From positions 1 to 54,513 of the IMG/VR virus record IMGVR_UViG_3300025652_000089: a DNA stretch of 54,513 bases. The stretch is one strand, 5' to 3'. The notes beneath the pieces are model-generated. The model saw nothing but the letters and a program-made list of their open reading frames with translations, was not told the origin of the DNA and did no database searches. The stretch's first letter is position 1; every line of letters begins with the position of its first letter. Shown piece by piece: positions 5,219 through 48,059 of this stretch. Origin of the DNA: a virus. A program made the position numbers and the translations under genes.

Positions 5219-6355
5219 ATGTCAGAAGTAAAAGTAGACTTGTCAAAAGTCAAGCCAAAGAAGGCTAAGGAAACAGTAACTAAGTTAGACCTTTCAAAGA
5301 AAAAAGAAGATGCCGTTCAAGAGCCAAGCACAGATGAAGTACCTGTACTCAACCAACCCGAAACTAGCGGAGAAGTGGAGAAAGGAACACCCGAATCAAA
5401 ACCTGAAGGCACTACCGAAGAAGTCACCAGTTCAGATGATGGGGGTGAGCAAGAAGTAGTAATACAAGAAATTACTGAAGAAGAGGTAAAGCCTGTTGTT
5501 GAAGAGACAGAGGATAAGGTTAAGGTAAACCTACCAGAGGGTGTAGATAAGCTGGTAAAGTTTATTGAAGAGACAGGTGGAGACTTGCAGGACTATGTAA
5601 GACTAAACGCAGACTACTCTACTGTGGATGATAAGGCTTTATTGAAAGAATACTATAAAAAAACAAAACCACATCTTGACGATGAGGAAATAGATTTTGT
5701 AATGGAAGAAAACTTCCTTTACGATGAAGACCTTGATGATGAGCGAGACATCAAGTTAAAAAAACTTGCTCAAAAAGAAGAGGTTTCAAAGGCCCGTTCT
5801 TTTCTAGATAATTTGAAGGATGAATATTACGAGGAAATCAAGTCGAGGCCCACGCAATCCAACGAACAAAGAAAGGCAATGGACTTTTTTAATCGCTACA
5901 AGGAGGGTGAACAACAAGCTGAGGAGTCTAGAAGTTTATTCAAATCTAAGACTAAGGACTTTTTCCAAAACGACTTCAAAGGTTTTGATTTCAATCTAGG
6001 AGAAAAGAAGTTTAGATACGGGGTAAGTAATTCAGACTCAATTGCTGAGACTCAGTCTAACATTAACAATATATTGGGAAAGTTTCTCGATGACAAGGGT
6101 AATGTTAAACAATTTGATGAGTATCATAAGGCAATGTACGCAGCCCAAAATGTTGACAAAATTGCCTCACACTTTTACGAGCAGGGTAAAGCTGACGCTA
6201 TCAAGGATGTTGCTGTTAAGTCTAAAAACATAACAGGTGAAGCACCTAGACAAACGTCAAACGACAGTCTGTTTATAAATGGTTTAAAGGTTAAGGCTGT
6301 CAACGGTATTGACTCCTCCAAACTTAAAGTAAATAAAAATAAATTTAAAAATTAA
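5219..6355 (+). CDS. Capsid scaffold protein (putative)
   Basis: 378 aa between portal and major capsid protein. The N-terminal 100 residues are acidic, Pro/Thr/Glu-rich and low complexity, the middle is charged and helical (DDEEIDFVMEENF, DEDLDDERDIKLKKL), and the C-terminus is basic (SKLKVNKNKFKN). Scaffolding proteins direct procapsid assembly and bind coat protein through a basic C-terminal helix, which fits this charge pattern. No protease motif is visible, so scaffold removal would have to be by exit or by another enzyme. The leader is AT-rich with no Shine-Dalgarno site. Call based on position and composition. Confidence 0.7.
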   Translation: MSEVKVDLSKVKPKKAKETVTKLDLSKKKEDAVQEPSTDEVPVLNQPETSGEVEKGTPESKPEGTTEEVTSSDDGGEQEVVIQEITEEEVKPVVEETEDKVKVNLPEGVDKLVKFIEETGGDLQDYVRLNADYSTVDDKALLKEYYKKTKPHLDDEEIDFVMEENFLYDEDLDDERDIKLKKLAQKEEVSKARSFLDNLKDEYYEEIKSRPTQSNEQRKAMDFFNRYKEGEQQAEESRSLFKSKTKDFFQNDFKGFDFNLGEKKFRYGVSNSDSIAETQSNINNILGKFLDDKGNVKQFDEYHKAMYAAQNVDKIASHFYEQGKADAIKDVAVKSKNITGEAPRQTSNDSLFINGLKVKAVNGIDSSKLKVNKNKFKN

Positions 6356-6361
6356 TAAATT

Positions 6362-7885
6362 ATGGGACAATTTGCAACTAACGACCCGTTGGGTTCGTTT
6401 TCCTTGGTACCTACTCCTTTTAAGAGTGTTACTCAAGGTTCTTATTTAAACTTTGCTGATGGAAGCGGAAACGACTTCGCACAGCAGTATCTACCTGAAA
6501 TCTATGAAGCTGAAGTAGAGCGTTACGGTAACCGTACAATCTCTGGTTTTCTTCGTATGGTTGGGGCTGAGATGCCAATGACTTCTGACCAAGTTGTTTG
6601 GTCTGAGCAAAACCGTCTACACCTTTCTTTCGAGAGTGGTATGGGTGGAGGAGGAGCTACCGTTGCTTCTGCTATTACCATTGCTGCTGGAGGAACTTTA
6701 GTTTCTGATGTAGCTGGTGAGGATTCTGGTGGTCTTTCTATTCAGCCTATTATCCGAGCTGGTTCTACTGTAGTTATTTATAACACAGTTAGTTTAGCAT
6801 CTGTTAAGTGTTTTGTTGACACTGAGCCTGTTGCTGGAGCTGGTAATAACTTTGATTTCAATGCTTATCCATACGATGCAGCTAACTTAAACGCTGTTTC
6901 TACTGCTGTTGGACAACCAGGAGCTGGGGGAAGTATTAAAATCTTCATATATGGTTCTGAATTTGCTAAGGGTACTGACTCTATGGCTGGTTCTATCACA
7001 CCATCTTTTACTCAGTACAACAACAGCCCAGTAATCATCAAGGACCAGTATGAGGTTTCAGGTTCTGACGCTGCACAAATTGGTTGGGTTGAAGTTACTG
7101 ATGAGGCTGGACTTTCTGGATACCTATGGTACTTGAAGGCTGAAGGTGAAACTCGTCTACGTTTTCAGGATTACTTAGAGATGGTTTCTATAGAGGGTGA
7201 ACTTGCTGCTGCTGGTTCTGCTGCTATTGGACGTTCTGCTGGTGGAATTACTCCAGGAGCCGCTGCTCCAAACGTAAAGGGTACTGAGGGTTTGTTTGCC
7301 GCTATTGAGGCACGAGGAAATGTTTATAACAACTTCTCTGCTGCAACTGGTTTAACTGACTTTGACAAGATTCTTGCCAACCTAGATAAGCAGGGTGCTA
7401 TTGAAGAAAACATGCTTTTCTTGAATCGTAACACTTCCTTAGATATGGATGACATGCTTGCTGCTCAGAACTCTTACGGTGCTGGTGGTACTTCTTACGG
7501 AGTATTTGAAAACAGCTCTGAGATGGCTTTGAACCTTGGATTCTCTGGATTCCGAAGAGGTTCTTATGACTTCTATAAGACCGACTGGAAATATCTTAAC
7601 GATGCTTCTACTCGTGGTCTTACTGAAGACATCGATGGAGTTTTGATTCCTGCTGGAACAACTACTGTTTACGACCAAATGCTAGGTACTAACATTCGCA
7701 GACCATTCTTACATGTACGTTACCGTGCATCTGAGGCTGATGACCGAAGAATGAAGTCTTGGATTACTGGTTCTGTAGGTGGTGCTGCTACTTCAGGAGA
7801 GGACGTAATGAAGGTTCATTTCCTTTCTGAGCGTTGCTTAGTAACTCAGGCTGCTAACAACTTCGTGTTGTTCAAGTCTGTCTAA
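6362..7885 (+). CDS. Major capsid protein
   Basis: 507 aa, directly after the scaffold gene and followed by a strong terminator, as usual for the most abundant virion protein. It starts MGQFATNDPLGSF and has Gly/Ala-rich surface-like insertions in the middle (about 95-300), consistent with an HK97-fold coat with a decorated domain. Codon use differs from its neighbours: Arg is mostly CGT/CGA rather than AGA/AGG, and Leu, Ala and Ser favour CTT, GCT and TCT, a sign of selection for high expression. The HK97 fold is known for the family and not directly shown here. Confidence 0.88.
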   Translation: MGQFATNDPLGSFSLVPTPFKSVTQGSYLNFADGSGNDFAQQYLPEIYEAEVERYGNRTISGFLRMVGAEMPMTSDQVVWSEQNRLHLSFESGMGGGGATVASAITIAAGGTLVSDVAGEDSGGLSIQPIIRAGSTVVIYNTVSLASVKCFVDTEPVAGAGNNFDFNAYPYDAANLNAVSTAVGQPGAGGSIKIFIYGSEFAKGTDSMAGSITPSFTQYNNSPVIIKDQYEVSGSDAAQIGWVEVTDEAGLSGYLWYLKAEGETRLRFQDYLEMVSIEGELAAAGSAAIGRSAGGITPGAAAPNVKGTEGLFAAIEARGNVYNNFSAATGLTDFDKILANLDKQGAIEENMLFLNRNTSLDMDDMLAAQNSYGAGGTSYGVFENSSEMALNLGFSGFRRGSYDFYKTDWKYLNDASTRGLTEDIDGVLIPAGTTTVYDQMLGTNIRRPFLHVRYRASEADDRRMKSWITGSVGGAATSGEDVMKVHFLSERCLVTQAANNFVLFKSV

Positions 7886-43966: not shown

Positions 43967-45046
43967 TTAGACGTGTAATTGTCTTGAGTTTAACACTTCA
44001 TTTTCTCTGAACCAGTTACCACAAGACGAACAGTAATAATTGTGAAACAAATCATGCTCAACGTCAGAAAAACACTCTCCACACATAGGGGTGTCTTCAG
44101 TAGGGAATGAATCATCGCTCCATCCAATATCTATTGCTTGGTGACTCTCAGATGCATCAAAACTTGGCTCGTCAAGGTAAGACCTATAGTTATCATAAGA
44201 ATGTGGTTGTTCAAATGATTTATGAAGTTGAGTATTGCTTGATATTTCTTTTGGGTTAAAATATACCCAACAACTTATTGTTTTGTCATTTACTACAATA
44301 GGTATTTGCACTCGTCTGTACCATTGTGGATGACCTTCTAGTGCATCTAGTTTATCCATCTGTACATCACTTACCTTAAACACATCAACATCTACGTTAT
44401 GACCAACGCCTTTTTTATTGACAAGGTAGGGCAGACCGTTTACTATTAATGGATATTTATCCTTAGTGAATCCTGTCCCTATGTGAGTTGCTTTATCAAG
44501 GTATGAGTAGTAGTTGCTATAACCTTTTTTTAATGTCCCATATACCGCAACAAGATTATCTTGTAACACGTTAGCTTTTGAATACCATATACCATCTCTA
44601 TATGTATACAAGTTTCTGTTGTAGATTTGAAAAGAACGAGTCCTTAAGTTTATTGATACAAACCTTGATTCGTAGGTTTCTAGTTTACTTCTCCATGCTT
44701 TCCTTTTAATTGAACCTAGCTGTATTGCTAGTTGCTTGCTGTCGCAAACATTATCATTTCCTAACCCCTGTATAGTTCCGTTATGCATAAGTAACTCATC
44801 TTTGTTCTTACCACACACAAAGGGATGAGTATTCTCTAAGTTCACAGCACCTTTGGTTGCATATCTAAAGTGGGCAATGAATGGTCTATTTGTTAGTAGT
44901 ATTTTATACTCATCTGAATTGTGATAAGTAACTTTGAATGTATCTAGCCATACAATCCCTAATCCATCGGGATTTATTTTGCTTGATGTTTTTGCGATGT
45001 CTTCTGACATCATGTTGTCTTTCTGTTTAATAATAATTACACACAT
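43967..45046 (-). CDS. Glutamine amidotransferase II / gamma-glutamylcyclotransferase / zinc-ribbon fusion
   Basis: 359 aa with three parts. (1) Residues 1-160: class II glutamine amidotransferase (Ntn hydrolase) with nucleophile C2 (MCVIII), DGLGIVW, IAHFRYATKG and LLMHNG. (2) Residues about 165-262: GGCT/AIG2-like domain with VAVYGTLKKG, YLVNKKGVGH, VDVDVFKV and DKLDALEGHPQWYRR, where E237 is the likely acid-base residue. (3) Residues 321-346: zinc ribbon CGEC / CSSC. GATase II releases ammonia or transfers glutamyl groups; GGCT cleaves or cyclises gamma-glutamyl amides. With the amidoligase at 47,082 this predicts making and trimming of amide-linked amino acids or peptides. Confidence 0.85.
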   Translation of the reverse strand: MCVIIIKQKDNMMSEDIAKTSSKINPDGLGIVWLDTFKVTYHNSDEYKILLTNRPFIAHFRYATKGAVNLENTHPFVCGKNKDELLMHNGTIQGLGNDNVCDSKQLAIQLGSIKRKAWRSKLETYESRFVSINLRTRSFQIYNRNLYTYRDGIWYSKANVLQDNLVAVYGTLKKGYSNYYSYLDKATHIGTGFTKDKYPLIVNGLPYLVNKKGVGHNVDVDVFKVSDVQMDKLDALEGHPQWYRRVQIPIVVNDKTISCWVYFNPKEISSNTQLHKSFEQPHSYDNYRSYLDEPSFDASESHQAIDIGWSDDSFPTEDTPMCGECFSDVEHDLFHNYYCSSCGNWFRENEVLNSRQLHV

Positions 45047-46542: not shown

Positions 46543-46559
46543 TTTAGATTTTTTTAAGT

Positions 46560-46575
46560 GGGTATTCAAATACCC
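46560..46575. promoter_or_regulatory. GGGTATT palindrome, copy 3
   Basis: GGGTATTCAAATACCC, perfect 16-bp palindrome. Covers the stop codon of the 112-aa gene (its last codons are within the right arm). Confidence 0.6.
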
Positions 46576-46904
46576 GTTTGGTTTCTAGTTAATTCATTTA
46601 CGATGTGTATGTTGTCATGATGGGTTTTTATACCCATGTCGTAACAACTCACAATCATTTTGCAAGCATTCTCTTGCTGTTCCGTTAAGTCTTGACCTAA
46701 GAACCTTAACGCTTCGTTTTTCTGGCTCTCAGTAGGTATGTACTCACCGCCCGCTGTATAGTAATCAAACGCACTCTTTGCTCTGTTTTTCTCTGCCTTT
46801 TTAGCTTGTTTTTCTCGCTTTGCATTTGCGTATTCATAATCATTACTCATTTTCTCAGCGTATGCCTTTGCTTGCGCTTTGCTTGGTCTCCATTTGTAAC
46901 CCAT
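46566..46904 (-). CDS. Conserved phage protein (112 aa)
   Basis: MGYKWRPSKAQAKAYAEKMS, a Lys/Glu/Ala-rich middle, then SQKNEALRFLGQDLTEQQEN. First gene after the hammerhead ribozyme on the same strand, so its mRNA would begin at the ribozyme cleavage product with a 5' hydroxyl end. Function unknown. Confidence 0.6.
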   Translation of the reverse strand: MGYKWRPSKAQAKAYAEKMSNDYEYANAKREKQAKKAEKNRAKSAFDYYTAGGEYIPTESQKNEALRFLGQDLTEQQENACKMIVSCYDMGIKTHHDNIHIVNELTRNQTGI

Positions 46905-46994
46905 AATTTAATCAATTTGCGGCCTTCCTTCATATGTGTTCCCACTCCTATGCATTCAGCCTAGTTTATTCATCATGCGTATAGCATAATATAG
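46905..46994 (-). other. Leader between ribozyme and 112-aa gene
   Basis: Minus strand carries the motif TTATGCTATACG (46,992-46,979) followed by overlapping tiny ORFs of 6 and 15 codons before the 112-aa start. No gene supported. The motif also occurs at 40,868-40,879 and 28,014-28,027. Confidence 0.4.
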
Positions 46995-47049
46995 TTTCCG
47001 TTTCGTCCTTTTGGACTCATCAGTATGGGCGAATACCCATAGACGGAAA
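46995..47049 (-). ncRNA. Hammerhead ribozyme, type III
   Basis: Self-cleaving RNA. On the minus strand: stem III TTTCCGT with ACGGAAA (7 bp, open end), cleavage triplet GTC ending at 47,042, stem I TATGGG/CCCATA (6 bp, loop TATTCG), core CTGATGA, stem II GTCC/GGAC (loop AAAA), and core GAAA. All invariant positions (C3, U4, G5, A6, G8, A9, G12, A13, A14, the 10.1-11.1 G-C pair, the A15.1-U16.1 pair and H17) are met. Predicted cleavage between 47,042 and 47,041, splitting the amidoligase mRNA from the downstream gene. Confidence 0.94.
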
Positions 47050-47070
47050 GGAGACGCTAAGCGCGTCCCC
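47050..47070 (-). ncRNA. Hairpin abutting the ribozyme
   Basis: GGGGACGC/GCGTCTCC, 8 bp with one G-U and loop GCTTA, directly 5' of ribozyme stem III with no spacer. After cleavage it would cap the 3' end of the amidoligase mRNA and could protect it from exonucleases, or stack on stem III. Confidence 0.75.
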
Positions 47071-47081
47071 TTTGCGATTTG

Positions 47082-48059
47082 TCAGCTATTCCATCCCATC
47101 AATTCGAGTGCTTCATTTGTGTAAAACTCACGTCCCAAACATCGCATTCCAAAGCACTTAACAACTTCAGCACTTATCTTGTTAGTTGTTAATACCTTTT
47201 TAAAGACCTTAGCTAATTCTAGCTTAGCATTGACCTTATCCATGTCATTTGAATACATTGATTTGATGATAGGTGTAATGCGCTTAAGAAAGGCTGCATG
47301 TGTTCCGTTCGGGTTATTGATGCTGAAGTCTAAAAGCTCATACATTAACTCGTAGCGTCTCATGGTTTGTTTTACACTGGTAAAACGGCTAACCAATCTA
47401 AACTCAATTAAGTCCCCTTTTACTAAACATACATTATACCTACCGTTGTTGTTTATTCGCTCACTGTGGGAAATCTGCATGGTAGGGTTACCGTTGCAAT
47501 AGCCGTTCGACAGTCGCTTGTTGAAAAGCGCCAAAATGATTCCGCAATTTCCGCGAATTGCTTTCATTATTTCTTCGCCATCCATACCTTGCACCCCTAA
47601 TGTGATGTGGCCGCCACAACTTTGGTTGCTTGGTGAATACTCATCATTAATAACTTTCTTAGCGTCATGTATCATGCTGAAGACTTTATTTCGCCAAAGC
47701 CCTGCACCCACTAATGGTAAAATGTTAGTGATGGCTTCGACTCCATTTCTCACTCCATTTGCGCCACAACTTGAGTCGTATTCCCAATGTGAGAATAAAG
47801 GGTATTCTTTTATCGCGCTTCTTGGTACTGAGTTTTTTTCAATTTCCATTCCTATAGTAAAACGGCTATCCATTTCGTCATATCTCGCACCATTGACCAA
47901 GTTTTTCTTTGCATTACGGTTAAGGTTGACAATGTCTAGATGCTTCGCCCCTTTGTTGTGGGTAATTGGTCGAATGCCAATTCGACTACCTTCATGATAC
48001 CTTAAAACTTGTGCTCTATTGTTTTCACCTGTTACTTCGTATTTGATTGAATTATTCAT
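47082..48059 (-). CDS. Amidoligase (COOH-NH2 ligase family)
   Basis: 325 aa. Family motifs in order: FTIGMEIEK (67-75), WEYDSSCG (92-99), EAITN (108-112, the usual E-[LI]-x-[TS]-P position), SCGGHI (147-152) and IEFRLVSR (218-225). Amidoligases have a glutamine-synthetase-like fold and join a carboxylate to an amine with ATP. The literature on this family predicts gene sets with GATase II and GGCT/AIG2 domains that make or edit peptide modifications; both partners are fused in the protein at 43,967. The stop is followed after 11 bases by a hairpin and a hammerhead ribozyme. Confidence 0.85.
   Translation of the reverse strand: MNNSIKYEVTGENNRAQVLRYHEGSRIGIRPITHNKGAKHLDIVNLNRNAKKNLVNGARYDEMDSRFTIGMEIEKNSVPRSAIKEYPLFSHWEYDSSCGANGVRNGVEAITNILPLVGAGLWRNKVFSMIHDAKKVINDEYSPSNQSCGGHITLGVQGMDGEEIMKAIRGNCGIILALFNKRLSNGYCNGNPTMQISHSERINNNGRYNVCLVKGDLIEFRLVSRFTSVKQTMRRYELMYELLDFSINNPNGTHAAFLKRITPIIKSMYSNDMDKVNAKLELAKVFKKVLTTNKISAEVVKCFGMRCLGREFYTNEALELMGWNS

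Follow-up and report, generated by a model that had tools for sequence, protein, structure and literature searches.

The glmS ribozyme/riboswitch is a self-cleaving RNA in a bacterial mRNA, as is proposed here for a hammerhead, and differs from the hammerhead in its fold, its location in the 5' UTR and its dependence on a metabolite; nothing in the hammerhead described here points to a ligand. Hammerheads that flank prophage genes have been described as well, and the sections of Perreault et al. (2011; PMC3088659) consulted propose that phage transcripts are processed by them into gene- or operon-length mRNAs. According to the same sections, three tandem arrangements were cleaved in vitro and one of them in vivo, and a U10.1-U11.1 mismatch was a surprising natural variant in which activity was tolerated (PMC3088659).

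The locus analyzed here lies on the minus strand of a viral DNA of 54,513 nucleotides (the window, i.e., the whole stretch of DNA that was analyzed). Its features, in the direction of transcription, are:

47082 to 48059, minus strand: upstream gene, 325 aa, amidoligase-like (carboxylate-amine ligase/glutamine-synthetase-like fold); from the ORF, 27 IMG/VR relatives, AlphaFold2 and Foldseek
47050 to 47070, minus strand: hairpin GGGGACGC-GCUUA-GCGUCUCC, 8 bp, adjoining stem III; from folding and energies
46995 to 47049, minus strand: type III hammerhead ribozyme, whole motif; from the RF00008 match and covariation
47043 to 47049, minus strand: stem III 5' strand UUUCCGU, terminating in G16.2-U16.1; pairs with 46995 to 47001
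47041 to 47042, minus strand: predicted scissile bond between C17 (47042) of GUC and U1.1 (47041); from the Rfam alignment and hammerhead numbering
47024 to 47041, minus strand: stem-loop I, UAUGGG-UAUUCG-CCCAUA, 6 bp, all covarying in relatives
47017 to 47023, minus strand: core CUGAUGA, (near-)invariant in alignment A2
47005 to 47016, minus strand: stem-loop II, GUCC-AAAA-GGAC, 4 bp, inner three pairs 100% paired and covarying
46995 to 47004, minus strand: core GAA and stem III 3' strand ACGGAAA; from the Rfam match and stem III covariation
46566 to 46904, minus strand: next annotated ORF, 112 aa, on the predicted 3' cleavage product, 90 nt past the ribozyme

The Rfam hammerhead III covariance model, proposed as a check in a preliminary description made from the letters alone, was run over the whole window with cmscan (Rfam 15). 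The RF00008 Hammerhead_3 model matched 46995 to 47049 on the minus strand completely (model positions 1-54) with 52.6 bits, above the gathering cut-off of 48.5 bits (E 8e-9), and this was the sole match in the window above any gathering score. No second ribozyme was revealed by a permissive scan of the window. Direct reading gave 7 bp for helix III (47043-47049/46995-47001), 6 bp for helix I (47036-47041/47024-47029) and 4 bp for helix II (47013-47016/47005-47008), each with zero mismatches and all 17 of 17 pairs formed. The core (CUGAUGA...GAA, A15.1-U16.1, C17) fits the invariant CUGANGA...GAA with an H17 that is not G, and stems I and II are closed by loops with stem III open, which is the type III topology. 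With an independent descriptor the site reached a helix score of 18, compared to a best score of 15 among 300 dinucleotide-shuffled windows, 244 of which gave no match. The Rfam match and the direct reading confirmed the earlier claim of a complete type III hammerhead with all invariant nucleotides, helices of 7, 6 and 4 bp and a GUC site. The predicted bond at 47042/47041 agrees with the Rfam alignment and hammerhead numbering, and the intergenic position on the minus strand, like both flanking genes, was also correctly described; between the amidoligase stop (47082) and the ribozyme there are 32 nt instead of the 33 given before. With the RF00008 class the window shares core nucleotides, three helices, open stem III and GUC site, with no difference in the catalytic motif, and it is distinguished by a 4-nt loop II (AAAA) and by the hairpin fused 5' of stem III. 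The first base of loop I (U) as well as A39 and A41 of loop II are invariant in alignment A2 of the relatives, which would fit a tertiary contact between loops I and II of the kind that accelerates cleavage. The window loop I (UAUUCG) is unlike the UGNGUG frequent in the relatives.

The genes on both sides were then characterized. For the upstream 325-aa protein no relevant Pfam/NCBIfam match was obtained at E<=1 across 14 family members, nor any relevant PHROGs match. An AlphaFold2 model built from 14 relatives (mean pLDDT 66) was compared by Foldseek with known structures, and the top matches were 1r8g (YbdK; E 4e-4, probability 1.00), 4lnn (E 5e-4) and 1tt4 (E 8e-4), all with low TM-scores of 0.29-0.35. 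The closest folds are thus YbdK and glutamine synthetase, so the predicted carboxylate-amine ligase fold supports the label "amidoligase" given earlier to this protein, despite the lack of a curated family match. The 112-aa protein matched nothing in Pfam or PHROGs. In the interval that separates the ribozyme from the 112-aa ORF, and overlapping the start of the latter, a 28-aa ORF (MKEGRKLIKLWVTNGDQAKRKQRHTLRK; 46847-46933, minus strand) with AGGAG about 11 nt upstream was observed, which may be the first translated item on the 3' product. Further along from the amidoligase, the window carries a gene for a glutamine-amidotransferase/gamma-glutamyl cyclotransferase protein (43967-45046, minus strand). 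The two genes co-occur in the window, in the relative L142 and in MW202828, being adjacent with no hammerhead between them in the last two, and this pairing suggests a phage pathway of amide-bond modification.

The claim that the window belongs to a Bacteroidota phage was borne out by its terminase, for which an unassigned spring phage supplies the closest annotated relative (64%), ahead of Flavobacterium elemo phages (44%) and of Cellulophaga phages of the Pachyviridae and Pervagoviridae (36-37%). This kinship to Flavobacterium and Cellulophaga phages (36-44%) makes it very probable that the window comes from a flavobacterial phage. No relative of the amidoligase was confirmed in 84,980 bacterial and archaeal genomes, so that scan provided neither a prophage nor a direct host. 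The blastn search of the hammerhead site against GenBank phages returned no match, and that of the ribozyme 55-mer returned partial matches only, one of which pointed to phi18:3.

The conservation of the hammerhead was assessed at the 27 IMG/VR loci encoding amidoligase relatives, which are 39-53% identical over the best segment. A type III hammerhead is located directly past the amidoligase stop in 23 of the 26 relatives with a readable 3' flank. The other readable relatives (L138, L142 and L144) and likewise MW202828 have none, which indicates that the hammerhead is not essential to the gene pair. The Rfam model detected hammerheads in 22 of the 27 relative records at E<=0.01, all under the strict cut-off. 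In an alignment of 51 distinct hammerheads, 87% of the cells were paired under the true structure versus 36-48% with slid partners. Two-sided changes numbered 226 versus 70 in shuffles (covariation score 0.65 versus 0.21) and were found at 14 of 17 pairs; in stem I, 100% of the cells were paired and 6 of 6 pairs had such changes. Covariation of stems I-III in related phages, whose absence would have refuted the claim according to the preliminary description, is strong in these 51 sequences. A hammerhead is easily generated and is missing from a few relatives, as would be expected of a neutral relic or a chance motif; however, this explanation is extremely improbable, given that 23 of 26 relatives, at a protein identity of 39-53%, have kept the motif with strongly covarying helices and that no shuffle reached its helix score. 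To judge from the relatives, the hammerhead at this site is under selection. The Rfam match, the helix covariation and the conservation of the site together confirmed its identity as a type III hammerhead.

In two of the relatives lacking the hammerhead, other elements were observed at the amidoligase gene. L144 has a twister-P3 ribozyme (5895-5972, 61.8 bits) just before the gene. In L138 (about 6871-6915) the hammerhead past the stop is replaced by what resembles the 3' half of a tRNA: it has a T-loop (GGGGG-UUCGACU-CCCCC), and its last bases are ACCCACA. ARAGORN called no tRNA there, and the question arises whether this half is possibly another processing signal at the same spot. A search with the Rfam Hammerhead_1 and twister-P3 models over 29 genomes found type I below the cut-off in two and twister-P3 in one.

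In the window and 10 whole relatives 22 hammerheads were found, one to five per genome and all between genes of their own strand, most commonly after the approximately 300-aa amidoligase and after a gene of approximately 360-374 aa. The window hammerhead and the 21 hammerheads of the 10 relatives thus lie between co-directional genes of phage operons, as do the arrays in the consulted sections of Perreault et al. (2011), from which the present phages differ by the conserved amidoligase 3' site and the abutting hairpin specific to type III. The claim of a new context therefore holds for the amidoligase 3' site and not for hammerheads flanking phage genes or for the processing idea, both present in those sections (PMC3088659). 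In the literature searched, which covered few subscription journals, neither a hairpin coupling nor a conserved amidoligase site was reported; the hairpin rule described below and the conserved site appear to be new, with the chemistry and the processing idea already known.

The U10.1-U11.1 mismatch described in the sections of PMC3088659 consulted was also found at the syntenic site in five relatives (L120, L122, L129, L136 and L139). Of the 123 type III hammerheads from phages, 56 have it, so that it constitutes a recurrent class, whereas the window has a normal G-C pair. When the nine non-G/non-C combinations were searched with a UCC/GGA stem, 75 of 75 matches with hammerhead helices were U-U, and with a GUC/GAC stem 13 of 13 non-G/non-C matches were A-A. 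The novelty of the U-U class was dropped, the active natural variant being already present in Perreault et al. (2011; PMC3088659, as far as consulted). For the A-A variant no description was found in the literature searched.

The hairpin of the window, which the preliminary description had overlooked, is located directly 5' of stem III, with its 3' end 8 nt before the predicted scissile bond, and can be extended to 11 bp (47047-47073) using the UUU of stem III. The hairpin with the full ribozyme (-33.0 kcal/mol) and the 11-bp hairpin with a 4-bp stem III (-33.1 kcal/mol) have equal energies, which indicates that hairpin and ribozyme are compatible. The unconstrained minimum-energy fold (-35.8 kcal/mol) is not the ribozyme fold, these values being secondary-structure energies with tertiary contacts left out. 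The near-isoenergetic states and the borrowed UUU (47047-47049) would suit a switch in which the hairpin acts as terminator or attenuator and the hammerhead is a competing fold. Such a switch is improbable, because 3 nt only are shared and stem III retains 4 bp in both states, and because the core nucleotides are invariant though irrelevant to a mere alternative fold. Moreover, the hairpin was not reported by a terminator scan and is followed by UUUCCGUC, with three U only. With 3 nt shared and the U-run absent, this reading was rejected. The predicted upstream product resembles that of an intrinsic (rho-independent) terminator in consisting of a stable hairpin and a short single-stranded tail, but the window lacks a U-tract and the end would come from self-cleavage and not from polymerase release.

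Similar hairpins were observed elsewhere. Seven genomes (G002, G005, G006, G008, G014, G016 and G026) contain 9-14 GTGTC...GACAC hairpins each, many of them intergenic, with or without a hammerhead, and the window has its own hairpin type, GGGTATTYRAATACCC, at gene ends, including 46554-46581. In the few cases inspected, no U-run came after the hairpin. Because the hairpin type is also found at the ends of genes that have no hammerhead there, it may serve a function apart from the ribozyme.

If the role of the hairpin is to cap the upstream cleavage product at its 3' end, type I hammerheads are expected not to need an external hairpin, and this idea was put to the test with hammerheads found without using flanking sequence, so that a hairpin association was not built in by the search. 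An abutting helix of at least 5 bp was present in 100 of 123 distinct phage type III hammerheads (81%) and in 12 of 146 of type I (8%). A minimum free energy of -8 kcal/mol or lower in the upstream 40 nt was found for 80% of type III versus 29% of type I (Fisher p 6e-18), and type I equals the upstream coding background (27%). Because the sequences are related by descent, these counts are not independent, but the contrast holds with one hammerhead per locus (75% of type III versus 30% of type I by the same energy threshold) and with unique upstream 18-mers only (abutting helix in 86 of 106 versus 12 of 140). In a set of 100 distinct type III hammerheads from phages, all of fixed geometry, the median energy was -14.3 kcal/mol in the 40 nt upstream (median z -3.1), compared to -0.8 in the 40 nt downstream and -5.3 in upstream coding sequence. 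The type III hairpins end 5-9 nt from the predicted cut (mode 6) and comprise 84 different sequences; after the common GTGTC...GACAC hairpin was set aside, 43 of 65 type III cases still had one. In type I, the 5' product is capped by the ribozyme's own stem III hairpin, which ends one nucleotide before the cut, so the difference between the two types is as 3'-end capping predicts. As a separate observation, a candidate H-type pseudoknot replaces the hairpin 5' of the type III hammerhead in L211, L234, L251, L188 and other loci (for example ACAUC-CU-AAGCA-A-GAUGU-AAAAC-UGCUU), and both of its helices co-vary between loci.

From the established chemistry of the hammerhead class, the window RNA is expected to cleave itself, and by the anatomy of the locus the predicted cut would fall between the amidoligase and the 112-aa genes. 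We consider it probable that the type III hammerhead, cutting co-transcriptionally, leaves the hairpin as the 3' terminus of the upstream mRNA. The leftward phage transcript would be cut after C47042 while being synthesized, leaving an upstream message in which the stop codon is followed by the stable hairpin and, last, by a tail of 8 nt bearing a 2',3'-cyclic phosphate. Such an end would be shaped like that made by an intrinsic terminator, would be produced by self-cleavage and could resist 3'-5' exonucleases. The downstream message would begin with a 5'-OH directly in stem-loop I. The purpose would presumably be to form a 3' end and to let the amidoligase message and the RNA that follows have lifetimes independent of each other. 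In 21 phages, the genes that come next after the amidoligase hammerhead sort into 13 unrelated groups, which indicates that the ribozyme is tied to the 3' end of the amidoligase gene and not to its downstream neighbor, a point also overlooked in the preliminary description; the 112-aa gene is itself unrelated to the genes at this position in the relatives.

Hammerheads were also identified in cultured phages, in record regions where no hammerhead is annotated:

MT497071.1, 17866 to 17920, minus strand: elemoF phage type III hammerhead, core CUGAAGA, GUA site, in an operon 5' leader
MT497112.1, 22258 to 22314, plus strand: elemo phage type III hammerhead, core CUGAAGA, GUA site, in an operon 5' leader
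NC_021789.1, 21767 to 21819, minus strand: Cellulophaga phi19:3 type I hammerhead
NC_021794.1, 21904 to 21958, minus strand: Cellulophaga phi18:3 type I hammerhead

The type III hammerheads of Flavobacterium phages elemoF_6-3D and elemoA_6-5A lie 14 nt upstream of an operon's first gene. Those of phi19:3 and phi18:3 share one position, flanked by two small genes; their stem III sequences differ but are intact, and the phi19:3 ribozyme overlaps the end of gp051, whose stop codon is contained in stem I. On other phage contigs (L060, L087, L097 and L110), 5-10 hammerheads were observed clustered within 3-8 kb; nearly all of them are of type I, and within such an array stem I is similar and stem III different.

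The elemo arrangement, in which the hammerhead precedes the first gene of a leftward operon and no gene lies upstream, bears on the possibility that the ribozyme serves the downstream gene, removing a leader and leaving a defined 5'-OH start whose stem-loop I sets translation or stability. The next start codon in the relatives is usually 16-25 nt past the ribozyme, and a transcript 5' end of halovirus HF1/HF2 maps at the hammerhead cut (sections consulted of PMC3088659). We regard such a function as possible but rather doubtful for the window, since the genes after the amidoligase site are not conserved (the 13 groups of 21 mentioned above) and the stable structure belongs to the upstream product.

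The hammerhead class is able to ligate as well as to cleave. Several relatives contain 2-5 co-directional hammerheads 0.3-3 kb apart, and pairs of them might excise RNA that is then ligated into circles, as in viroids or retrozymes. This is very improbable here: the window has a single hammerhead, and where there are several they are separated by ordinary protein genes. In addition, spliced or circular products were sought in phage-type tandems and none was found, according to the sections of PMC3088659 consulted.

The preferred reading, formation of the upstream 3' end, extends to a wider proposal, for and against which we see about equal chances: in flavobacterial and other phages, many mRNA 3' ends may arise through self-cleavage and not through termination, by means of a modular hairpin (or pseudoknot) with a type III hammerhead at gene ends and a type I hammerhead capped by its own stem III. 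The role of the ribozyme is testable by end mapping during infection in Flavobacterium BAL314 with the elemo phages and in Cellulophaga baltica with phi18:3 and phi19:3. The function of hammerheads in bacteria and phages has been a standing question since hundreds of them were found in 2011, and the hairpin rule (type III and not type I, 5-9 nt from the cut) offers a specific and falsifiable function, the 3' end of the upstream message. If true, the permutation of the hammerhead and the presence of an external hairpin would be explained by which cleavage product needs protection.
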